DNA from: Prevotellaceae bacterium
Lineage (GTDB): Bacteria > Bacteroidota > Bacteroidia > Bacteroidales > UBA932
Length of the DNA stretch: 22,014 nucleotides
Assembly (NCBI GenBank): GCA_031273285.1
Contig: JAISSE010000031.1
Coordinates: 1-22,014, forward strand
Direction of reading: 5' to 3'
The notes beneath the pieces are model-generated. The model was not told the DNA's origin. It made no database searches and saw only the letters and a program-made list of their open reading frames with translations. Positions 1-21,703 of the stretch are shown in pieces. The number at the start of each line of letters is the position of its first letter. The first letter of the stretch is position 1. The translations under genes and the position numbers were made by a program.

Positions 1-336
1 AAACAAAGTGAAATTTGGTCGATCGACGTTGGTCCGATAAAAGAACCGGAAAAACAAAGAAGAATACCTGTCGTTATAGTGAACGATGATCAGTATGTTT
101 CCTTACCGTTAAAACTAATTGTATCCGTCACCGAATGGAAAGACTATTATGAAAATTTTCCATGGATGATAAAAATTTTCCCCGATGATTTCAACGGACT
201 GTCCGAAATTTCAGCAATTGATTGTTTCCAAATCTGTTTCGTTCATAAGGAAAAACTGATAAAACAACTTGGTTCTGTTGATATTGATATATTCAACAAA
301 ATGCAGGAAACTATCAGGGATGTATTGGGTGTATAA
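1..336 (+). CDS. PemK/MazF-family toxin, 3' part
   Basis: The frame is open from the first base and stops at 334-336, giving 111 residues with the start outside the window. Family members are ribosome-dependent or free mRNA interferases paired with an antitoxin. The visible protein begins KQSEIWSIDVGPIKEPEKQR, which matches the usual opening G-E-I-W-x-V-D-x-x-P-x-K-G-x-E. It continues with a hydrophobic strand (IPVVIVNDD), and its C-terminal half NGLSEISAIDCFQI...KEKLIKQLGSV follows the family pattern 'GL..S.....qir..dk.rL.k.iG.l'. The usual 'RP' after the first loop reads R-I-P. A GTG at 79 could be called as a start but would remove the conserved opening. The antitoxin, normally upstream, is off the window. 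A CRISPR-type repeat begins a few bases after the stop. Family assignment is by pattern recall; toxicity is not shown. Confidence 0.78.
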   Translation, partial: KQSEIWSIDVGPIKEPEKQRRIPVVIVNDDQYVSLPLKLIVSVTEWKDYYENFPWMIKIFPDDFNGLSEISAIDCFQICFVHKEKLIKQLGSVDIDIFNKMQETIRDVLGV

Positions 337-339
337 CTT

Positions 340-369
340 GTTCCGTTGCTGCGCAAGCGGCATTGAAAC
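340..369 (+). repeat. Solitary CRISPR-type repeat
   Basis: The 22 bases at 348-369 contain the complete functional core of the large array's repeat: the stem GCTGC, loop GCAA, stem GCGGC, then the handle ATTGAAAC. The 5' part (ttgttccgtt) is diverged. The handle ends in GAAAC, as does only the last repeat of the main array (12059-12080); the others end in GAGAT or GAGAC. It lies between the toxin-gene stop and cas6, about 8 kb from the array, in the orientation of both. The hairpin is intact, so Cas6 should be able to cut it if it is transcribed. Confidence 0.85.
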
Positions 370-712: not shown

Positions 713-2458
713 ATGTTGAAAGACCTTTTACAGTTATACGGTCAATTGTTTTACCACCGTTTCGTTGTGCGGATGATTGCCGTGAACGACGTCGTTTTCG
801 ACGCATGGACAGGCGCCGTTATCCGGAATAATCTGCTGTATGCGGCGGAACATGTCTTGATGGCGGAAACAAAGCAAACGCTTCGCAACAGGATAGATAC
901 CTTCCCGCTGGAAGATACGCATCCTTTGTACAAAGAACTCAGGGAGGGATTTCCGAAAGGCTATGTGCTGACGGATTTCTCCCATTCCAACCTGCAAACG
1001 CCGGAAACTTCCATAAAGAAAAATGAGATTGTTTCCTTTTCGCTGATTCTGATCGGCAATTACAACAACTACAAATCGTATTTTTTTCAGGCGATACGGA
1101 AGATGTGCGAACGGGGCTTCGGCAAACCCTTGACCCCTTTCCGGCTACTGGATATTGCCGAACAGTCGCCGGCGGGAGAATCGCAGGTGATGGCGGCAGC
1201 GCAGGACGATTTGTCGGAAACACTGCTGTATCCGGTACGTTTGTTCGATTTCATCCGGAAAGACGAAATAGATGAATTTTCCGAAATCACTGTCCGATAC
1301 CTTACGCCGGCTATCCTTTTCCGTTTAAAAAACAAGAAGAACACACAGTTGAGCTATCAGGACAAGAACAATCGTTTTCCGAGCTTTTACCAGCTGGTGC
1401 GTTCGACGTTTTTCCGATTGCAGAAATTACACGCAATCTACGGCAACCCCGACGAATACGCTCCCGAACTTTTCGACGCCGCACTGTTGGAAAATTATCT
1501 GGAAAAAGCAGGTTCTCCCTTGTTGAAATCGGCAAATATTCGATATATCACACTTCAAAACACGCAAAAAAAAGAAAAAACAAACGAAATGCCCCTGTCG
1601 GGATACACAGGCGAGGCGGTTTATTCGGGATATTTTCGGAAATATTTACCGCTGCTGCGGTTTATGGAAGCGCTGGGAGTTGGAAATGAGGTGGTGTACG
1701 GAATGGGACGATATGAAACGGAAGAAGACAATGGAAAAAACATATCCTCCGGCGCCAACAATCGTGATAAGCAGAATTTTAAAAGAGTATCAATCCTTAC
1801 CGTGCGATTCAAGAACGAAATCGACAGCAACGAAATTCAGCAATTCAGAGATACCGTTATGAAGATGTTGACCGGTAATAATGTCTTTTCATACACTCCT
1901 ACAGGCAAAAAACTGCGCCATCCTTATCCCCTGATACAATATAAACGACTGAACGGAAAAGCGTCAATCGTTTGTGTGGAAGAAGGAACGGAAAGCATAG
2001 GCGAATTTTTCTCCAATATCCGCAACTCGTTTTATTTGGACGATAAAGAAATATTGCTGGAATTAGACTCGGTGAAAGCCAGTCAAACATTAGTGCAAAT
2101 TTGGAACAGCAACTTCACCTATTCCATCCGCAAATGGCAACCTTTCAACAGTATGAATTACGCAACATTTCAACAAACAGACGATTTGCAGGCAAAGATC
2201 GCTTTTCTGGAAAAAATACTGAACACACATATTCTCGCCTTTGTCAAAGAGGTAGGCATCCGGTTCGAACGGGAATTTCGCTGTTCGATTATCGACATCG
2301 AAGCCAAAGAATCAATGAAAGATTCCGTTTTCGCTTCGTTTGATTTAATGTTTAAAACAAATGTATCCCTCCCCAACTACATCGGGCTGGGAAAAGGCGC
2401 CAGCCACGGGTTTGGAACCATAATACGAATGAATAATAATAATAACATATATATATAA
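713..2458 (+). CDS. cas6: Cas6 fused to a Cas6b-like domain (pre-crRNA endoribonuclease)
   Basis: This is a 581-residue protein, about twice the length of a normal Cas6. Residues 1-335 read as a RAMP-type Cas6 (PF10040-like): an N-terminal strand RFVVRMI, the segment VSFSLILIGN (107-116) followed by an aromatic helix and ERGFGK, and a C-terminal G-Y-T-G-E-A...ALGVGNEVVYGMGRYE ending near 335. A polar linker (about 336-355) leads to a second complete module at 357-570. It has VRF, HPYPLIQYK (403-411), a central W-rich part, and the glycine-rich GLGKGASHGFG (558-568) typical of the short Bacteroidetes Cas6b-like endonucleases. In those, as I recall them, an F-H-N-H motif precedes YPLIQYK; here that place reads F-S-Y-T, so the second module may have lost a catalytic His. 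The tail is Asn-rich, from an AAT microsatellite. Only 11 nt separate it from cas10. The start at 713 keeps the first RAMP strand; no Shine-Dalgarno is visible. Expected job: cutting the array transcript to give crRNAs with 8-nt handles. Confidence 0.88.
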   Translation: MLKDLLQLYGQLFYHRFVVRMIAVNDVVFDAWTGAVIRNNLLYAAEHVLMAETKQTLRNRIDTFPLEDTHPLYKELREGFPKGYVLTDFSHSNLQTPETSIKKNEIVSFSLILIGNYNNYKSYFFQAIRKMCERGFGKPLTPFRLLDIAEQSPAGESQVMAAAQDDLSETLLYPVRLFDFIRKDEIDEFSEITVRYLTPAILFRLKNKKNTQLSYQDKNNRFPSFYQLVRSTFFRLQKLHAIYGNPDEYAPELFDAALLENYLEKAGSPLLKSANIRYITLQNTQKKEKTNEMPLSGYTGEAVYSGYFRKYLPLLRFMEALGVGNEVVYGMGRYETEEDNGKNISSGANNRDKQNFKRVSILTVRFKNEIDSNEIQQFRDTVMKMLTGNNVFSYTPTGKKLRHPYPLIQYKRLNGKASIVCVEEGTESIGEFFSNIRNSFYLDDKEILLELDSVKASQTLVQIWNSNFTYSIRKWQPFNSMNYATFQQTDDLQAKIAFLEKILNTHILAFVKEVGIRFEREFRCSIIDIEAKESMKDSVFASFDLMFKTNVSLPNYIGLGKGASHGFGTIIRMNNNNNIYI

Positions 2459-2469
2459 AGTGTAACAAG

Positions 2470-4929
2470 ATGAAAAAGATAAAAGAACATATCTATCTGG
2501 CAGCGTTGCTGCACGATATCGGAAAGTTTTATCAAAGAGCGGATACGGGAAATGTTTCAACAAGCAAATACCTGTCGCAAACTAATAAAACGGAGAGTAT
2601 TCTTCCGCAACACAAGGGAGCATATACGCACAAATACTGTTTATGGACAGCACAGTTTATGGACGACAATCGGGATGTTTTCGCAAATTTGACCGGCACG
2701 GATTCGTCCGACTTGACGGGCGTAACCGATTTGCGCGATTTAGCTGTTTGTTATCATTTACAAAAAGAACAGCTATCGTCTTTGGGACAGATTGTCAAAG
2801 AAGCCGACAGTTTGTCTTCCGGCGTGGATACAGACTCCGAAGAAGCTTTTAAGGACTACAGGGACGAAGCCTCGTGGGATGCATTTAAAAAACGACGAAT
2901 GGTGTCCGTGTTTGAAACCATAAAACAAAAAACGTTTGAAACCAAATGGCATTTACCGGTTACGAAACTCTCCGTGTCAAAGGATTATTTCCCAAAAGCG
3001 GATTTCCAATCCAATCCGGACTACTCCGGCCTGTGGAAAGAATTTATTGATGAATTTACGCTGATTCGGGCGAATACCTGCAGCGCTTTTGGCGAAACGC
3101 TTCTGAATCTGTTGTACAAATATACGGCTTGCATACCGGCAAGCACTGTTAATTTTCCGGATGTATCGCTTTATGACCATGCCAAAACAAGAGCGGCTCT
3201 GGCTGTTTGTCTATACGATTTTCAACAGAGCGGAGAACAGTCCCCCCAGCCCTTTTTATTGATTGGGGCGGATTTGAGCGGCATCAAATCCTATCTGTAC
3301 CAGATTGTATCGAAACATGCAGGCAAAAATCTGAAAGGACGTTCGTTTTTCCTGCACCTCCTCTCGGACGCGGTGACTCGATATTTATTGAAAGAACTGA
3401 ATCTGTTTCAGGCAAATGTTATTTGCAATTCGGGCGGAAGCGTTTATTTAACAGCTCCGAATACCGATTTTGTTCGGAAAAAAATACGGGAAATCAGCGA
3501 CATAATCGAACAAAAATTCTTTACTTCCTTCGGAACATCTCTCTTTGTTGCCATTGACGCAGTTGCGATATCAAAAGATGTTTTGATGCACAAAAGCAAA
3601 CAGGAAAATTTGGGTCAAATATGGCATACTTTATTCGAGAAATGCGAAAGGAAGAAATCCTCAAAATTTGCTTCCTTAATCGAAAGCCGGTACAACAGCT
3701 TCTTCGCTCCGATACACCAGGGAGGAGACGCTTTGCGCGATGAAATCACGGGTGAAGAATTTTTGGAAAGCGAAAAGTCCGAAAATACAAAGTTGATTAT
3801 CAAAAAAGATACAAATCAACAGATTATTCTTGGAGAAAAACTTCAGGAAACAGACCTGATGATCGTTTCGGACAAAAAACTCAAATGCCTGGATAACGAA
3901 TTTTATATCAATCCGGCAGACCTTGGCTTTTATTACTATTTTCCGAAAAACGAACAACTGACCCAATCGGTTGATAACAGTTCCATTGTGCGATTCAACA
4001 ATTGCACGTTCCATCAACCCGTAAAAGGAAACAACAACTCCTGCGAGTTTCGATTCTACGGCGGTAATAAATTCAACAGACAAGCTTTTGAAGACCTGTC
4101 CCAAAACCCCAACATTTCAAATTTGGGCGTTTTGCGCATGGACGCAGATAATTTAAGCTCTGTGTTCCAAAAAGAAATACCGCCCGAACGCGCTACATTA
4201 TCCCGCTTTGCGACGTTAAGCCGGCTGTTAGATTACTTCTTTTCCGGCTATCTGAACAAAATACGGGAGACGACGGATACGGAAAATCAATCATTCATCA
4301 TCCACAGCGGAGGCGACGATGTGTTTATTGTCGGCAGCTGGGATGTAACCATAACACTGGCAAAAAGAATCAGAGAAGATTTCCGGGAATTTACCTGTCA
4401 CAGTAATCTGTTCGGCATATCGGGAGGAATGTCCGTTATTCCGGCAAAATTTCCGCTGATAAAAGGCGCCGAAGAAAGCGAAAACGAAGAACAACACGCA
4501 AAAAATCATTCGGTAAAAGGAACCGGCAAAAATGCCTTCTCCTTTATGAACATGCCCTTGAACTGGGAAAAAGAGTTTCAGTCAGTGGAAAAACTAAAAG
4601 AAAAAATGGTGGATTTAATAGACAAAAACATTGTTCCCAGAACGTTTATTTCAACCATATCGGCGCACTGGGCTAATGCCGAAACAAAAAAACATAAAGT
4701 GGGGCAAGTCAAAACTTACTGGAGGCTCACATACGATTTGACCCGCATGAAAGACCGTATCAAAAACGAAACGGCAAAACAAATGATGACAAACTGTATC
4801 ACCGAAGTATGCGGTAATACTTCATCCCTTGACGGTTTACCGATCTCGACCGGTTATCATCCTTTGGAATTGTGGGCTTTTGCCGCCCGATGGGCAGAGT
4901 TTGAATATAAAAAAAGTAATAAATATTAA
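2470..4929 (+). CDS. cas10: Type III-A effector large subunit Cas10/Csm1
   Basis: The 819-residue protein is the signature subunit of the Csm complex. The N-terminal HD nuclease motif is present (LLHDIGKF, His15-Asp16). The first palm-like domain begins around GADLSGIKSYL (Asp268 onward). The second palm starts with RMDADN (Asp558, Asp560) and carries an intact GGDD at 614-617 inside HSGGDDVFIVGS, which predicts synthesis of cyclic oligoadenylates from ATP when target RNA is bound. No CxxC zinc knuckle is visible between the palms. The C-terminal helical domain ends in a basic tail. The gene lies between cas6 and csm2 with short gaps (11 and 25 nt), so co-transcription is expected. No CARF-domain effector to receive the signal is present in the window. 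Both active sites look functional. Confidence 0.96.
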   Translation: MKKIKEHIYLAALLHDIGKFYQRADTGNVSTSKYLSQTNKTESILPQHKGAYTHKYCLWTAQFMDDNRDVFANLTGTDSSDLTGVTDLRDLAVCYHLQKEQLSSLGQIVKEADSLSSGVDTDSEEAFKDYRDEASWDAFKKRRMVSVFETIKQKTFETKWHLPVTKLSVSKDYFPKADFQSNPDYSGLWKEFIDEFTLIRANTCSAFGETLLNLLYKYTACIPASTVNFPDVSLYDHAKTRAALAVCLYDFQQSGEQSPQPFLLIGADLSGIKSYLYQIVSKHAGKNLKGRSFFLHLLSDAVTRYLLKELNLFQANVICNSGGSVYLTAPNTDFVRKKIREISDIIEQKFFTSFGTSLFVAIDAVAISKDVLMHKSKQENLGQIWHTLFEKCERKKSSKFASLIESRYNSFFAPIHQGGDALRDEITGEEFLESEKSENTKLIIKKDTNQQIILGEKLQETDLMIVSDKKLKCLDNEFYINPADLGFYYYFPKNEQLTQSVDNSSIVRFNNCTFHQPVKGNNNSCEFRFYGGNKFNRQAFEDLSQNPNISNLGVLRMDADNLSSVFQKEIPPERATLSRFATLSRLLDYFFSGYLNKIRETTDTENQSFIIHSGGDDVFIVGSWDVTITLAKRIREDFREFTCHSNLFGISGGMSVIPAKFPLIKGAEESENEEQHAKNHSVKGTGKNAFSFMNMPLNWEKEFQSVEKLKEKMVDLIDKNIVPRTFISTISAHWANAETKKHKVGQVKTYWRLTYDLTRMKDRIKNETAKQMMTNCITEVCGNTSSLDGLPISTGYHPLELWAFAARWAEFEYKKSNKY

Positions 4930-4954: not shown

Positions 4955-5425
4955 ATGCCAGATTATCGTAACAATCAGCAAAGCGGCGGTTTCAACAGAA
5001 ATCAGCAGCGTCCTGCAAGCTATCAAACACAAGAATCGGCTGCAGAAATGAAATTCAAAGAACTTTTGTATAAATCCGACTGGATAAAAACAGAAGCCGA
5101 CAGTAAATTAGTGGAATATGTGGAAGATGCCGGAAAATTCATGGCGAAAAACGGTCTAACCAACTCCAAAATACGAAGTATCTACGGAGAAATCAAACGC
5201 ATCCAAATGGGTCAGTTTGAAAAGGAAAAATCAGCATTTATTCTCCTCAAACCCAAAGTAGCCTACGCTATGGGAAGAGATGAAAGAAATGAAGGATTAA
5301 AACTTTTTAAACTGATATTCGACCGTTCATCGCAAGATGTGAACGATCAAAAAAGCTTTATCAACTTTTGTAATTTCATGGAAGCTATCCTGGCTTACCA
5401 TAAAGCAAACGGAGGCAAAGATTAA
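4955..5425 (+). CDS. csm2: Csm2 small subunit, with Q/N-rich N-terminal tail
   Basis: The 156-residue protein has the Csm2 pattern from about residue 32: a helix around LLYKSDWIK, then LTNSKIRSIYGEIKRI, LLKPKVAYAMGR, and the closing FMEAILAYHKANGG. Csm2 forms the helical small-subunit filament that helps hold the crRNA-target duplex. The first 30 residues (RNNQQSGGFNRNQQRPAS...) are rich in Gln, Asn and Arg, look disordered, and are an extension relative to the conserved core. A second Met at residue 32 could be an internal start, but the A/T-rich leader just before 4955 is like those before csm3 and csm4 and favours the longer form. Confidence 0.95.
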   Translation: MPDYRNNQQSGGFNRNQQRPASYQTQESAAEMKFKELLYKSDWIKTEADSKLVEYVEDAGKFMAKNGLTNSKIRSIYGEIKRIQMGQFEKEKSAFILLKPKVAYAMGRDERNEGLKLFKLIFDRSSQDVNDQKSFINFCNFMEAILAYHKANGGKD

Positions 5426-5463
5426 ACAAACAAGATTTATTGAAAATATTTAAATTTATAATT

Positions 5464-6099
5464 ATGTCAAGTATAAAATTAGCAAAGAAAATAGTTTATA
5501 CCGGTACTATCACCCTCAAAACCGGTTTGCATATCGGCGGCACAAATGCAGCCCTGAATATCGGTGGACCCGACAAGTTTGTAGTGCGCAATCCGCTTAC
5601 CAATATCCCCTACATTCCCGGAAGTTCGTTGAAAGGCAAAATGCGCGCACTGGTGGAAATCTCCAACGGCGAAACCAATAACGGAAAACCTACAAATAAT
5701 CCCAATTCAAAGGCGGGAAAACTGTTCGGCATTTCCGGCGACAGCGACAACAGCCGGGCTTCAAGGCTCATTGTGAGAGACGCTGAACTGGATACCGAGT
5801 CGGCAAATTTCAGCAATACCGATTTACCTTATACCGAAAGCAAAACGGAAGTGGCTATAGACCGGGTAACGGCTAAAGCCAATCCGCGAACATTTGAACG
5901 GGTTCCGGCAAACGCAAAGTTTAAACTGAATATGGTGCTGAACATCTTTGAAGGAGAAAACGAAAATGAACTGAAAGCCACTCTGAAACAGGCAATCGCT
6001 CTATTGCACGACGACTATCTCGGCGGACACGGCTCACGAGGCTACGGACAGGTGGAAATTGAACTGGATAAAGAACATGGTGAAGACAGAACCTACTAA
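5464..6099 (+). CDS. csm3: Csm3 backbone RNase
   Basis: The protein has 211 residues from the ATG at 5464. This RAMP subunit forms the backbone of the Csm complex and cuts target RNA at 6-nt intervals. The N-terminus is the usual strand followed by GLHIGG. The catalytic Asp equivalent is Asp37 in IGGPDKFV, just before the conserved NIPYIPGSSLKGKMR (47-61). The C-terminus carries the glycine-rich GGHGSRGYGQVE. An in-frame ATG at 5440 would add eight hydrophobic residues not seen in the family. The ATG at 5464 has the TAATTATG context shared with csm2 and csm4, so it is preferred. It lies 38 nt after csm2 and 10 nt before csm4. Confidence 0.96.
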   Translation: MSSIKLAKKIVYTGTITLKTGLHIGGTNAALNIGGPDKFVVRNPLTNIPYIPGSSLKGKMRALVEISNGETNNGKPTNNPNSKAGKLFGISGDSDNSRASRLIVRDAELDTESANFSNTDLPYTESKTEVAIDRVTAKANPRTFERVPANAKFKLNMVLNIFEGENENELKATLKQAIALLHDDYLGGHGSRGYGQVEIELDKEHGEDRTY

Positions 6100-6109
6100 T
6101 TCGTAAATT

Positions 6110-7102
6110 ATGCCAAAATACAATATTGTCAAACTGACGAATTTAACTCCTTTGCATATCGGTACGGGAAAGCAGAATCAGTACGATTCCGCGGCTGCCG
6201 ATTTGCACAGCGATACGCTTTCGGCAGCTTTGGCAGCTTTGAGGGCTCAGCGGGGAAACACAAACGATACGGAGGCTTTTCTCAATTCCTTTACCCTCAG
6301 CTCGGCTTTCCCGTTTTGGGGCAATACGCTGTTTTTGCCCAGATTGCAGGGAAAAATGCCCGTCAAAGTTGCCGGAAAAGAAGAAAACGAATACGGCAAA
6401 CAGTTGAAAAAACTGAAATATATCGACGCCGCCCTGTGGAACGAACTTGTAAAAGGTAAATCGCTGACGGTGGAACCTTCTCAACTGGAAGTTGAAGAAT
6501 TTCTGCTGAAAACGGACAAGGATTTCGAACAACCGTTCAAATCGCAAATCAACCGGCGAATCACCGCCCCGCGAACAGGCAATCAGGACGCAGAACCGTT
6601 TTTCTTCCACTGGACATACTACCACGCAAAATCAGGACTGTATTGCCTGACGGATGCCCAGGGCGCAAAATTCGACGAAACAGTCAATCTCTTTAAACTG
6701 TTGGGCGAAACAGGACTCGGCACAGACAAAAACTCCGGCGGAGGAAAGTTTGAAGTAGAAACGGATACAATAACGCTGCCGGACGTAACGGGCGCCAATC
6801 ACACCCTGTTGCTGTCGCTTTATATTCCCGAAGAAACAGAAATGCCGAAACTGCGCCTGTCCGCCGCTCAATACGGATTAACGCTGCGAGGCGGCTATAT
6901 GGCGGGAAGCTCCGAAGAACACCTGCGGTATCTGCGCAAACGTTCCGTGTATATGTTCACCGCAGGCTCACTGTTTCCAACCACCGCCAAACTGAAAGGC
7001 AAAACCGTAAACCTGACGCCCGACCGTAACGACGAAGGAATACATCCGGTGTATCGCAGCGGCAAACCGTTTTATCTACCCGTTAAAACCAACGTATCAT
7101 GA
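6110..7102 (+). CDS. csm4: Csm4, crRNA 5'-end cap subunit
   Basis: This 330-residue RAMP protein binds the 8-nt 5' handle of the crRNA and contacts Cas10. The N-terminal LTNLTPLHIGTGKQ is the characteristic Csm4 opening. The second RAMP half contains GETGLGTDKNSGGGKF (about 199-214), the usual glycine-rich loop. The C-terminal third has GGYMAGSSEEHLRYLRKR. The length is normal for the family. The stop overlaps the csm5 start in an ATGA arrangement, which suggests translational coupling. Confidence 0.94.
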   Translation: MPKYNIVKLTNLTPLHIGTGKQNQYDSAAADLHSDTLSAALAALRAQRGNTNDTEAFLNSFTLSSAFPFWGNTLFLPRLQGKMPVKVAGKEENEYGKQLKKLKYIDAALWNELVKGKSLTVEPSQLEVEEFLLKTDKDFEQPFKSQINRRITAPRTGNQDAEPFFFHWTYYHAKSGLYCLTDAQGAKFDETVNLFKLLGETGLGTDKNSGGGKFEVETDTITLPDVTGANHTLLLSLYIPEETEMPKLRLSAAQYGLTLRGGYMAGSSEEHLRYLRKRSVYMFTAGSLFPTTAKLKGKTVNLTPDRNDEGIHPVYRSGKPFYLPVKTNVS

Positions 7103-8208
7103 GCGCCGTAAAAATAGAAACACTGACGCCGGTGCATATCGGTTCGGGTAACATGCTATACAATAACACCGATTTTGTGGGCGTAAGAATCGGCAATGAA
7201 CCCTGTCTGGCGGTGATTTCCGAAGAGAAAATCTGGAAACTGCTGGGAGAACAGCATCTGGACAACTGGCTGCAGGCAATTACTGAAAGAAAACCTTTGA
7301 GAGATTTCTTACAGAAATTCGCACCCAACGCCAAATCCATCGATTATTCCAAACGCCGGATGCCGCTGTTTGCTGACCTCAAACCGAATGATACGCTAAA
7401 GGAAACTCTCCACAACGGCATGGGTTTGCCCTATATTCCGGGCAGCTCGATTAAGGGAGCAATCAGAACGGCAATCCTGGCTTCCGTGGTAAAGACCATT
7501 CAGGATAAGGAAAATGCCATTCAGGAATTTAAAAACGGAAAAACACTTGTTTCAGCAAAAAAAATCGAAACAAAAGCTTTCGGAATCGACCCCAACAGCG
7601 ACGCCTTCCGATTTATCCATGTCGGCGACGCCTATTTTGAAAAGGACAGCGAAATCGCCATGCGGCTAATAAATCTCAATGTCCGAAACAGCGAAAATGA
7701 CTTGATGGATAAATCCAAACCTCAACTCGTGGAAGCAATCTGTCAGGATGTTCAATGTTCGATTCAATTGAAAATCGCCAGGGAATACTACGATTTCGTG
7801 AAACAGAGATTTGATCAGGTGGGTCGATTACCCGTCAATTCCGCAGACGACCTGTTCCGGATGATCAATTCCCATACCCGTAAACTGGTTGAAGATGAAA
7901 TCGAAATATGGAACAATATAGCGAAAAACAAAATCGGAGGCGAGGGTTACATTGAACAGATGCAAAACATTTTCGACACGATTAATGCCTGCGAAGACGG
8001 GAAATCCTGCGTGCTGCGAATCGGACATACCTCCGGCTGGAGGTTTATTACCGGAGCATGGGCAGAAAAGTTATGGAATTTCAAAGACGTGGTTGTTCCC
8101 GCTTCCCGCCCGAAAAATCATAATTATGAAAACTATGATTTTCCGAAAACACGACGGCTGGACACAGAGAGTTATATCATGGGATTTGTGAAATTAACCC
8201 TGCTGTAG
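7099..8208 (+). CDS. csm5: Csm5, crRNA 3'-end subunit
   Basis: The 369-residue RAMP protein sits at the 3' side of the crRNA in the Csm complex and is implicated in crRNA 3' maturation. It opens with IETLTPVHIGSGN, has LPYIPGSSIKGAIRT with the GSS at 115-117, and closes with FPKTRRLD (348-355) and the short strand GFVKLTLL, all typical of Csm5. The start overlaps the csm4 stop by 4 nt. It is the last cas gene before the array; no csm6, cas1 or cas2 follows. Confidence 0.94.
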   Translation: MSAVKIETLTPVHIGSGNMLYNNTDFVGVRIGNEPCLAVISEEKIWKLLGEQHLDNWLQAITERKPLRDFLQKFAPNAKSIDYSKRRMPLFADLKPNDTLKETLHNGMGLPYIPGSSIKGAIRTAILASVVKTIQDKENAIQEFKNGKTLVSAKKIETKAFGIDPNSDAFRFIHVGDAYFEKDSEIAMRLINLNVRNSENDLMDKSKPQLVEAICQDVQCSIQLKIAREYYDFVKQRFDQVGRLPVNSADDLFRMINSHTRKLVEDEIEIWNNIAKNKIGGEGYIEQMQNIFDTINACEDGKSCVLRIGHTSGWRFITGAWAEKLWNFKDVVVPASRPKNHNYENYDFPKTRRLDTESYIMGFVKLTLL

Positions 8209-8357: not shown

Positions 8358-9041
8358 TCGGAGGCTTGGACGCGGCGGCATTGAGAGAAATTAAAAATTA
8401 CGAATTAAAAATTACGAATTACAATCGGAGGCTTGGACGCTGCACAGGCGGCATTGAGATGTTACAGTTTGAAACGAAGCTTTCATGATTAACTGGTCGG
8501 ATTGCTAACAGCTGCGCAAGCGGCATTGAGATATTGCTGCATAAAGCCGATTTGTAATTATTTTCCTTTGCAGGATTTCTAACAGCTGCGCAAGCGGCAT
8601 TGAGATCGAAGTTACCGTTACCGTTACCGTTACTGAGTTACTCTCAGCACAGGATTTCTAACAGCTGCGCAAGCGGCATTGAGATTATATATTTGTTTGC
8701 ATAATAATCAATTTAAATGTGCAGGATTTCTAACAGCTGCAAAAGCGGCATTGAGATAGCAAAATAGAGGAGCGAGAAGAATAAGGCTCTTGTTGTCATA
8801 TCGCTAACAGCTGCGTAAGTGGCATTGAGACACATCCAATTACTGTATGGGGATAGGCTCAACATGATTCGGATTGCTAATAGCTGCGTAAGCGGCATTG
8901 AGACGATGATGTTATTATTTCACTCCAAGGTCCCTTCTCAGTTAATTAATAGCTGCACAAGCGGCATTGAGATACGCTGTACTCACTTGCAGTTTTTCGC
9001 ATCAGTCAAATTTCTAACAGCTGCGCAAGCGGCATTGAGAT

Positions 9042-9188
9042 TCGCAGGCACCGTTACGGAATGGTTATTTTCCACATCGGTCAAATTGTTAATAGCTGCG
9101 CAAGCGGCATTGAGATGTTACCGTTACGGTTATTTTGCTGCTGTACACCGAGTCGGATTGCTAATAGCTGCGCAAGCGGCATTGAGAT
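9042..9188 (+). repeat. Two-spacer block duplicated at 9555-9701
   Basis: The segment of two spacers and two repeats after 9041 recurs with the same length (147 nt) after 9554. Both spacers (beginning TCGCAGGCACCG and GTTACCGTTACGG) are identical, while the repeats between and after them differ at a few bases. The second spacer returns once more, mutated, at 11144. This is copying of array segments, not independent uptake. Confidence 0.9.
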
Positions 9189-10138
9189 GTACAGACGCTG
9201 TACTCACTTACAGTTTTTCACATCGGTCAAATTGTTAATAGCTGCACAAGCGGCATTGAGATGCTATTTGTCGATGAATTAGTGATACCATTCACTGATG
9301 TCGGATTGCTAATAGCTGCGCAAGCGGCATTGAGATCCCCCCGTGTTCGGTAATCAGTTCCGGTGCGTTAAGTCGGATTGCTAATAGCTGCGCAAGCGGC
9401 ATTGAGATGCTTTCTCCCTGTATCTGTGATATCACATTCCTCAGTCGGATTGCTAATAGCTGCGAAAGCGGCATTGAGATGGAATGTTTTTTTTTTTAAT
9501 TCCTCCTGTAAAATTTGGTCAAATTTCTAACAGCTGCGCAAGCGGCATTGAGATTCGCAGGCACCGTTACGGAATGGTTATTTTCCACATCGGTCAAATT
9601 TCTAATAGCTGCGCAAGCGGCATTGAGATGTTACCGTTACGGTTATTTTGCTGCTGTACACCGAGTCGGATTGCTAATAGCTGCGTAAGCGGCATTGAGA
9701 CGATGATGTTATTATTTCACTCCAAGGGCCCTTCTCAGTTAATTAATAGCTGCGCAAGCGGCATTGAGATGGAATGTTTTTTTTTTTAATTCCTCCTGCA
9801 AAATTTGGTCGGATTGCTAATAGCTGCGCAAGCGGCATTGAGATAATGAATTTTTCTGAAGTATTCATGTTATTAAAAAAGTCAAATTGTTAATAGCTGC
9901 ACAAGCGGCATTGAGATTTATCCTCTTTCTCTTCTAATTTTTTTATTTTTTTCTGTCGGATTGCTAACAGCTGCACAAGCGGCATTGAGATTCGTCCTCT
10001 TCCTTCTCTCTCCCTTTCCCCCTCTCTGTTGGATTGCTAATAGCTGCACAAGCGGCATTGAGATGCTATTTGTCGATGAATTAGTGACACCATTTACTGA
10101 TGTCGGATTGCTAATAGCTGCGCAAGCGGCATTGAGAT

Positions 10139-10266
10139 ACTAACTATGTCGCCGTAGGTACCCGATTCTCCTTTGTAATAGCTGCGCAAGCGGCATTGAG
10201 ATACTAACTATGTCGCCGTAGGTACCCGATTCTCCTTTGTAATAGCTGCGTAAGCGGCATTGAGAT
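10139..10266 (+). repeat. Tandem 64-nt repeat-spacer duplication
   Basis: Two adjacent units carry the same spacer (beginning ACTAACTATGTCGCCG). Both downstream repeats lack the usual GTCGGATTGC start, so the unit is 64 nt instead of 72-74. The shared truncation shows that one unit was copied from the other; only one loop base differs (GCAA versus GTAA). Confidence 0.88.
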
Positions 10267-12100
10267 TCGTCCTCTTCCTTCTCTCTCCCTTTCCCCCTCT
10301 CTGTCGGATTACTAATAGCTGCACAAGCGGCATTGAGACATTCGGTTTTGTTGTGGATTTACATTTGCCATAACAGTCGGATTGCTAATAGCTGCGTAAG
10401 CGGCATTGAGATACACCTCCATTTAATTCATCAGTTACTAAAGTGTAGTCGGATTGCTAATAGCTGCGTAAGCGGCATTGAGATAGTAGAGGAAAAAACA
10501 CCTTTGTTTAAGTCGATAAAAAGTTGGATTGCTAATAGCTGCGAAAGCGGCATTGAGATTCACCAGCACCTGCCGTTGCGCTTGCAATGTGTAGTCGGAT
10601 TGCTAATAGCTGCACAAGCGGCATTGAGATACTATTTGTCGATGAATTAGTGATACCATTTACTGATGTCGGATTGCTAATAGCTGCGCAAGCGGCATTG
10701 AGATATTTCCTTTTTATAATTTCCCTTTAATTTATTAAAAGTCGGATTGCTAATAGCTGCGCAAGCGGCATTGAGATTCATACATTATTTCATATATTTG
10801 CTTAAAATATTCTAGTCGGATTGCTAATAGCTGCGTAAGCGGCATTGAGATTGATTATTTTTGTTAAAATGCTCTTCAAAATCAACGTCGGATTGCTAAT
10901 AGCTGCGTAAGCGGCATTGAGATTCGTCCTCTTCCTTCTCTCTCCCTTTCCCCCTCTCTGTTGGATTGCTAATAGCTGCGTAAGCGGCATTGAGATTCGT
11001 CCTCTTCCTTCTCTCTCCCTTTCCCCCTCTCTGTCGGATTACTAATAGCTGCGCAAGCGGCATTGAGATTTCTAATGAGAGCGACGAAGAGCTATTATTA
11101 GAAGAAGTTGGATTGCTAATAGCTGCGCAAGCGGCATTGAGATGTTACCGTTACGGCGATTATATTACTGCTGTACACCGAGTCGGATTGCTAATAGCTG
11201 CGCAAGCGGCATTGAGATGCTATTTGTCGATGAATTAGTGATACCATCCACTGATGTCGGATTGCTAATAGCTGCGCAAGCGGCATTGAGATATGATGAT
11301 AGTACGTGAACGAAGTCCCATGATTTCGAGTGCGTCGAATTGCTAATAGCTGCGAAAGCGGCATTGAGATTCTGGTGTTTTTTCCCATCATAGACATAAC
11401 TACACGGTGTCAAATTGCAATAGCTGCGCAAGCGGCATTGAGATATAACGAAGAATAGATATTATTTCGCGAGTTTAAAGTCAAATTGCTAACAGCTGCA
11501 AAAGCGGCATTGAGATAGCGTTCGGCAATGCGATAGTCGTTACCGTTACTTCGTCGGATTGTTAATAGCTGCGCAAGCGGCATTGAGATGTCGATGTTTT
11601 CGGCGATCTGCTTCACGGTAACATGTCACGCTAACAGCTGCAAAAGCGGCATTGAGACAGTCTTAATCGTTGTATTCATATATAAAAAAATTTGGATTGC
11701 TAACAGCTGCAAAAGCGGCATTGAGACGGTACGTGAGAAGATTTTATAACCTTATAATTCATTTGTCACATTGCTAACAGCTGCGCAAGCGGCATTGAGA
11801 CTTATCATCAATTGTAACATTCCAAATAATTCTACGAAGTCGGATTGCTAACAGCTGCGAAAGCGGCATTGAGACACTCTGCCGAAAAGAGTTTCGGAAT
11901 CGAATTTTATTGTCGGATTGCTAACTGCTGCGAAAGCGGCATTGAGACACTATCACTTATTTCAATACGACTAAGTTTAAGAGTCGGATTGCTAACAGCT
12001 GCGAAAGCGGCATTGAGACACTACACCTGTGTAAATGCTTCCATGTTCACTGTTAACAGCTGCGAAAGCGGCATTGAAACCGACATTATGTGTCCCTCTA

Positions 12101-12452
12101 CCCCTAAGCCGAACAAGCCGGAACCAAAAAGAGTGTATTTGACTGCGTCGAACTTACGCTTCAAATTGTTAAACCTCATTTATACCTTATTTTCCAAACA
12201 AAACAACCTCAGTAGCATCGGGATTACCCCCCTCTCCAACCTTATTACCTGATTATATTATTCCACAAAAGGAAGAGATAAAATCAGGTAATGAGGTTTA
12301 CAAGAGGTAGTAATTACCGCAGTTACTGAGGTTGTTTTGTTGTTTAAATAAGGTAGAAATGAGGTTTTTGTACTTCGTAAAGAAACAACAGTTTGAAACG
12401 TCAGTTCGACGCAGTCATATCCTCTTTGGTTCCGGCTTGCCCGGCTTAGGGG
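12101..12452. repeat. 352-nt imperfect palindrome after the array
   Basis: The two halves are diverged inverted copies. Matching segments are 12101-12128 with 12425-12452 (26 of 28 by eye), 12141-12170 with 12387-12416 (27 of 30), 12171-12193 with 12345-12367, the stretch near 12198-12214 with 12324-12340, and the core ATTACCTGATT (12244-12254) with 12282-12292. The spacing differs between the arms, so they have gained and lost bases since duplication. No protein or transposase is evident. It could be a foldback mobile element or a long structured RNA at the end of the array transcript. Confidence 0.82.
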
Positions 12453-12463
12453 TTGTTGATTTA

Positions 12464-12592
12464 TTTAAGGTCTTTAAGGTCTTTAAGGTCTTTAAGGTCT
12501 TTAAGGAGGTTAAGACCTTAAAGACCTTAAAGACCTTAAGTCCTTAAAGTCCTTAAGTCCTTAAGTCCTTAAGTCCTTAAAGTCCTTTTTTA
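12464..12592. repeat. Decamer foldback island A (TCTTTAAGGT family)
   Basis: Tandem copies of TCTTTAAGGT run up to a centre GGAGGT and then continue as the inverse, ACCTTAAAGA, drifting to AAGTCCTT. The whole can fold into one long stem, and the + strand ends in a T6 run at 12587-12592. It lies between the array and the convergent peptidase operon, so a bidirectional terminator is plausible. Two more islands of this family are at 20815-20934 and 21258-21305. Confidence 0.8.
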
Positions 12593-21430: not shown

Positions 21431-21682
21431 AATCGCAGTTAGTAGCTAACTCTAATTAGTGTCAATGACACTAATCGCAGTTAGTAGCTAACTCTAATTA
21501 GTGTCATTGACACTAATCGCAGTTGGTAGCTAACTCTAATTAGTGTCATTGACACTAATCGCAGTTGGTAGCTAACTCTAATTAGTGTCATTGACACTAA
21601 TCGGAATCAGTAGCTAACTCTAATTAGTGTCATTGACACTAATCGCAGTTGGTAGCTAACTCTAATTAGTGTCATTGACACT
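21431..21682. repeat. Six tandem copies of a 42-bp palindromic unit
   Basis: Units start at 21431, 21473, 21515, 21557, 21599 and 21641. Each holds AGTTRGTAGCTAACT, then the hairpin ATTAGTGTCA-T-TGACACTAAT, which spans the junction to the next unit. Variation is limited to a few bases: CAATG versus CATTG in the first unit, TTAG versus TTGG, and a GGAATCAG variant in the fifth. A related short hairpin GATTCTA-AA-TAGAATC precedes the series. The regular spacing suggests a satellite; binding sites or iterons are alternatives. Confidence 0.9.
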
Positions 21683-21703
21683 AATTGGAATCGTGGGGTA
21701 ACC

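Follow-up and report, generated by a model that had tools for sequence, protein, structure and literature searches.

The Cas6 of type III systems is generally seen as a separate enzyme, which cuts the precursor and then leaves. Chains in which Cas6 is joined to other domains are known from the Cas6-RT-Cas1 fusions (PMC8102632 and PMC5513706, both in excerpt), and R37 is an active-site residue of Cas6-RT-Cas1 according to the excerpt of the first source. For Cas6b, two histidines of the M. maripaludis enzyme have been implicated in catalysis (PMC3652601, in excerpt). A Cas6 of B. fragilis leaves a canonical 8-nt 5' handle (PMC10600005, in excerpt). Cas6 and Cas6b are both known families, and a fusion of the two was not found described in the open-access literature searched.

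Such a fusion is encoded in the window, that is, the whole stretch of 22,014 nucleotides of Prevotellaceae DNA that was analysed (contig JAISSE010000031.1). The gene is a single uninterrupted open frame of 581 codons with no internal stop (Table 1). Pfam matches CRISPR_Cas6 at residues 206-334 (55.1 bits, cut-off 25), Cas6b_N at 359-456 (60.3 bits, cut-off 25) and Cas6b_C at 463-572 (97.8 bits, cut-off 39.4), and each half, scanned on its own, again yields its matches. CRISPR_Cas6 (PF10040, gathering score 25) scores 47.9-55.1 bits in the N half. The PADLOC models of Cas6 span residues 13-337 and 360-573, nearly all of both halves. The original prediction that two normally separate Cas6 families are joined in one chain is thus borne out. 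The NCBIfam Cas6 equivalog matches weakly, with 15.4 bits and below its cut-off of 58.65. All three Pfam domains in the chain belong to Cas6 or Cas6b, and no RT or Cas1 domain was found by the Pfam scan. In the structure model (pTM 0.69), the N half is predicted to take a Cas6 fold and the C half a Cas6b fold.

The genes that follow are those of a type III-A (Csm) system, since NCBIfam Csm1, Csm2, Csm3, Csm4 and Csm5 all score above cut-off in one operon. At the edge of the window lies an ORF of a PemK/MazF-like toxin (Pfam PF02452; 1-336, cut by the window start). Short tandem repeats with AGGTCTTTA-like units occupy 12451-12587, and three copies of a 23-base unit are found at 21442-21685.

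Table 1. Features of the fusion gene, its operon and its repeats (positions of the window; residues of the fusion protein)
Feature	Position	Strand	Remarks
Solitary repeat-like copy	331..367	+	stem kept, handle ATTGAAAC
cas6 fusion gene, N-type Cas6 + Cas6b	713..2458	+	581 aa
N half, residues 1-335, RAMP Cas6 of PF10040	713..1717	+	likely active endoribonuclease, predicted
Linker, residues 339-356	1727..1780	+	model confidence low at 342-353
C half, residues 357-573, complete Cas6b fold (predicted), Cas6b_N + Cas6b_C	1781..2431	+	
Site of lost HNH motif, residues 392-396	1886..1900	+	FSYTP in window protein
Glycine-rich loop of C half, residues 558-568	2384..2416	+	
cas10/csm1	2470..4929	+	11 bases after fusion-gene stop
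csm2	4955..5425	+	
csm3	5464..6099	+	mechanical ORF starts at 5440
csm4	6110..7102	+	
csm5	7099..8208	+	
More degenerate repeat copy	8368		
CRISPR array, 51 repeats matching N type	8422..12078	+	5-bp stem, four-base loop, 8-base ATTGAGAT/C handle; presumed substrate

The fusion is rare yet not unique. Among 5.8 billion proteins, 101 relatives were returned (the query included), of which 36, the window protein among them, carry all three domains and 65 the N half only. The 35 other fused proteins are 46-67% identical to the window protein. A named MAG contig of Dysgonamonadaceae (L033) also carries the fusion, its 5' end cut by the contig edge, and the same csm genes come after it, 62-87% identical in their best segments. 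An error of assembly, which the original prediction had named as one possible refutation, is ruled out as a chimera by these fused relatives and by the separate contig, and nothing was found in its favour. Given also the 581 codons without a stop, the chance that assembly or annotation joined two neighbouring genes is negligible. No further case came from the other searches: the whole-protein search of 393 genomes of the order and 198 relatives returned no fusion besides the window's own, the N-half profile returned no further one when run on the class (395 genomes) and the family (199), and one scan of viral contigs gave none. Six plasmid records matched one half alone, and in none did the match reach 80% of the query. 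A 582-residue frame in one genome (G171) was rejected as a fusion, since the reading had run through the stop of a separate Cas6b of 220 residues.

The two halves differ in what they have kept. The second module had been noted to read F-S-Y-T where F-H-N-H was expected, and the comparison agrees: H-N-H stands in 119 of 120 listed standalone Cas6b (of 530 found) and in none of the 36 fused proteins. Both histidines of the motif are still present in 6/36 fused proteins, and the motif loop is shortened in several. A second sample of standalone Cas6b genes gave HNH in 30/33, HHH in two (L055, L057) and neither in one (L074); it comprised 37 Cas6b matches, of which L080, L082, L083 and L084 start after the motif and were unscored, L083 being later seen with HNH. 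In the M. maripaludis Cas6b (4z7k) the aligned loop also reads HNH, at chain residues 38-40 as counted on the alignment, so its catalytic histidines would be those of this motif. Beyond the motif, 21 of the 54 columns that are at least 95% invariant in standalone Cas6b fall below 80% in the fused C half, R379, Y410, S509 and K561 being among those lost; K561 is replaced in 29/36. Since HNH is absent, the C half is classed as a Cas6b-derived domain and not as an active Cas6b. Its inactivity is no more than probable, because the Cas6 of S. solfataricus cuts although it has no canonical histidine (PMC3652601, in excerpt).

Loss through fusion as such was considered and ruled out. Among Cas6b fusions with NrN-like DHH proteins, HNH is kept in three of five (P0222, P0223, P0226) and changed in P0224 and P0225, and it is kept in a fusion with Card1 (P0227); fusion is therefore not in itself the cause. 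The NrN reading was made by eye, from the DHH motif and a likeness to the ORF beside a CorA-like ORF, itself recognized by eye, in the type III-B locus of genome G292.

The N half is better kept. None of the 35 columns that are at least 95% invariant in its unfused relatives (N-type Cas6) falls below 80% in the fused N half, and R38, N39, N40, H70, Q227, R230 and R235 are present in 32/32 fused proteins examined (P0007, P0019, P0031 and P0049 were left out, their N-terminus being incomplete). R38, in 75/75 aligned sequences, and H70, in 74/75, are near-invariant. Between the window and L033, residues 102-338 give dN 0.182 and dS 2.22 (near saturation), a dN/dS of about 0.08. The N-half profile had no significant sequence match to a solved Cas6, the best being 6dd5 with an E value of 0.19. 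A plasmid Cas6 tried as a bridge from the N half to R37 of Cas6-RT-Cas1 had no match to solved structures. Judged from its conserved residues, the N half is likely the cutter.

The repeats fall into two classes according to the Cas6 beside them, as surveyed in the window and in L031-L084. Near standalone Cas6b, nine arrays (the first array of L031, L049, L057, L068, L069, L073, L078, L080 and L083) have weak-hairpin repeats mostly ending in GGATTAAGAC. Near N-type Cas6, the repeats form a stem closed by a four-base loop, and their handle is ATTGAGAC or similar (the second array of L031, L038, L050 and L075). The array of the window is of the N-type class, and repeats of this class also lie elsewhere in the genome of L035 (G969). 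Predicted folding energies are -7.5 to -12.1 kcal/mol for N-type repeats (n=5, window included) vs -1.0 to -4.2 kcal/mol for Cas6b-type repeats (n=9), with most single repeats folding no better than their shuffles; of six N-type repeats L038 alone stands out (6/200 shuffles). Over seven N-type sequences, of which the window supplies three, the five-pair stem is kept in 35/35 cells; its covariation is weak, three sequences having both sides of one pair changed and 21/500 shuffles reaching the score. Not counted as CRISPR arrays were L043/L063 (three copies within an open frame) and L046 (a 42-base unit with gaps too short for spacers), while the energy comparison left out L119, a distant N-type relative with a hairpin seen by eye only, and L094, another system of the window's genome. 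This L094, on another contig (C247), has a Cas1 gene between ORFs resembling Cas4 and Cas2 by eye and a different array whose repeat ends in GGAATTGAAAC.

A search of the window's genome (76.6% complete) with one pattern, allowing up to 3 mismatches, returned no Cas6b-type repeat. As the HNH motif is gone and the weak-hairpin repeat was not found, the Cas6b half probably does not cut. The earlier proposal that one half binds while the other cuts is thus upheld as to the loss of a catalytic motif in one half, and the direction it had left open points to the N half as the likely cutter and the Cas6b half as the degenerate one. It is rather improbable that both halves cut, as a maturase of two specificities serving two repeat classes that feed one effector. 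A natural parallel exists in G292 (L031), where two different Cas6 genes, each beside an array of its own repeat class, share a single type III-B locus; the handles of the two classes, ATTGAGAC and ATTAAGAC, differ in one base. The fused C half also keeps its basic charge and predicted fold, and a sixth of the fused proteins retain both histidines; the complete HNH, however, is absent from all of them, and the second repeat class is the one that the genome search did not return.

The array itself shows which part of the repeat is held. In the 51 repeats, the stem (positions 16-20 and 25-29) and the handle (30-36) are nearly fixed: the sole stem change is a C to T that preserves a G-U pair, and the handle changes at position 35 in one repeat. 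Drift is found mainly at positions 1-10, at position 14, in the loop (21-22) and at the last base. A fixed stem and handle are expected if the enzyme reads the hairpin and the handle, and cutting of the repeat would leave an 8-nt handle. There are 50 spacers, 44 of them distinct, and a 183-base segment at 9005 recurs at 9518 (98%), so the array holds internal duplications. The solitary copy at 331-367, some 350 bases ahead of the fusion gene, overlaps the end of the preceding ORF; it may be what is left of an old array, or a site for Cas6 in the leader of the operon.

These repeats bear on the proposal of an intramolecular pseudo-dimer, in which the degenerate Cas6b half grips the RNA and the N half cuts. 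The Cas6 of S. solfataricus is 95% less active as a monomer (PMC3652601, in excerpt), which favours it; so does the charge of the halves, basicity being raised in the fused C half compared with standalone Cas6b and lowered in the fused N half compared with unfused N-type Cas6 (uncorrected for relatedness). However, an extra contact would most naturally fall on the 5' third of the repeat, and it is there that the drift is strongest, which speaks against the second half reading this part, and such reading by the Cas6b half is disfavoured. Furthermore, unfused N-type Cas6 occurs with the same repeat class in genomes where Cas6b is not detectable: none was found in 12/15 N-type genomes searched, four of them at least 98% complete and several incomplete, so the N-type enzyme seems not to need Cas6b. 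The pseudo-dimer is therefore unlikely, and the original idea that it could be dedicated to a drifting repeat is not supported, as the drift lies mainly outside the stem and handle and the unfused enzyme shares the repeat class.

Within the order (taken as Bacteroidales from named relatives), standalone Cas6b was surveyed at 37 loci, and at 15 it stands directly upstream of a window-like cas10, with csm2-5 all detected in 11/15; one such locus (G393, L063) comes from the same genus as the window. The fusion occupies this slot of standalone Cas6b before cas10. Both fusion loci with readable context, the window and L033, carry the Cas6b-type Csm operon, L033 with no array visible. None of the ten unfused N-type loci with readable effectors does: five have III-B (L038, L039, L050 and L075 by PADLOC, L031 from its ORFs), three III-D (L034, L036, L040) and two a divergent III-A (L035, L119). 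The N-type loci L037, L041, L042 and L047 were left out of this scoring, the match being cut short or the contig small. Both states occur in one MAG (G967): L033 combines the fusion with III-A, and in L040 III-D is accompanied by an N-type Cas6 that has no Cas6b.

We consider it probable that an N-type Cas6, as the working nuclease, was fused onto the Cas6b of a III-A operon, whose Cas6b half then decayed while its body was kept. The resident would have been a type III-A operon cas6b-cas10-csm2-csm3-csm4-csm5 with crRNA maturation by Cas6b. A second Cas6, of the type seen mostly beside III-B and III-D effectors, would have been joined in frame at the N-terminus. Its half would bind the hairpin of 5 bp and four-base loop, the cut falling at the 3' base of the stem and giving the 8-nt 5' handle AUUGAGAU/C, and the array would by now be of the newcomer's repeat class. 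The catalytic motif of the resident Cas6b may then have decayed while selection kept its body, which would most likely serve to hold RNA or to dock to Csm. The fusion resembles a natural replacement of one maturase by another, in which the repeat class changed as well.

In another reading, the Cas6b half is a functionless vestige on its way to being lost. Loss of the 21 columns would suit such a vestige, as would members of the fused N-half clade that have no Cas6b half. In the N-half tree, 35 fused sequences (P0049 was left out) and 16 N-only sequences form one clade with support 100/100; some of the N-only ones may be fragments, but P0037 (L034) and P0036 (L035), checked on the DNA, have a real stop with a Cas10 gene directly after, and likewise L036, which is absent from the tree. 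Against this, the C half is still under purifying selection (window vs L033: dN 0.269, dS 1.08, dN/dS about 0.25), Q409, K411, N550 and the loop glycines G558, G560, G562, G566 and G568 are invariant in 36/36 fused proteins, and the half is retained in all of these. A vestige is accordingly quite unlikely. The fusion may have arisen once or twice; the C-half trees and the existence of two linker lengths (10-18 and 34-50) hint at two events. In an earlier test the C-half tree holding the fusions together was 17.03 log units better (p-AU 0.747); in the last, from which the long sequences L024, L027 and L029 were left out, it was 4.71 log units lower (p-AU 0.285), one clade not being rejected in either.

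Under the takeover by the N-type Cas6, both RNA holding and Csm docking would fit the kept body, and docking would fit the operon pattern better. Tentatively, and as a possibility short of an expectation, the decayed Cas6b half may be an operon-specific adaptor that brings the crRNAs made by the N half to the former Csm complex of Cas6b. This would explain why the Cas6b body stands with the Cas6b-type Csm operon (2/2) and is absent beside III-B, III-D and divergent III-A (10 loci). If true, the hand-off from maturase to effector in type III systems would become directly testable. A conserved chain that keeps a second, probably dead Cas6 points to a non-catalytic role of Cas6, in RNA holding or hand-off.

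Among known systems, Cas6b itself (PF17955/PF17262; M. maripaludis 4z7k/4z7l) has the HNH that the fused proteins lack, and in these it is joined to another Cas6. Marinomonas Cas6-RT-Cas1 (6dd5) likewise contains a RAMP Cas6 of PF10040, with a very weak sequence match to the N half, whereas the partner in the window protein is a second Cas6. The Cas6b-NrN-like DHH proteins (P0222-P0226) and Cas6b-Card1 (P0227, whose partner is the Card1 CARF-nuclease) also hold Cas6b in a larger chain, but with an effector-type domain as the partner. Another arrangement of two Cas6 occurs in two genomes, where a second divergent Cas6b-like ORF is convergent to a normal Cas6b (L012, 2466-3173; L018, 2427-2960). 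In the dimeric Cas6 of S. solfataricus two Cas6 units act together, again with no canonical catalytic histidine as far as the excerpt of PMC3652601 goes; that enzyme is a homodimer of separate chains, whereas the fusion is one chain. The Cas6b-cas10-csm2-5 (III-A) operons have the same gene order as the window, with Cas6b directly upstream of cas10, and the window differs from them in its extra N-terminal Cas6 and its other repeat class.
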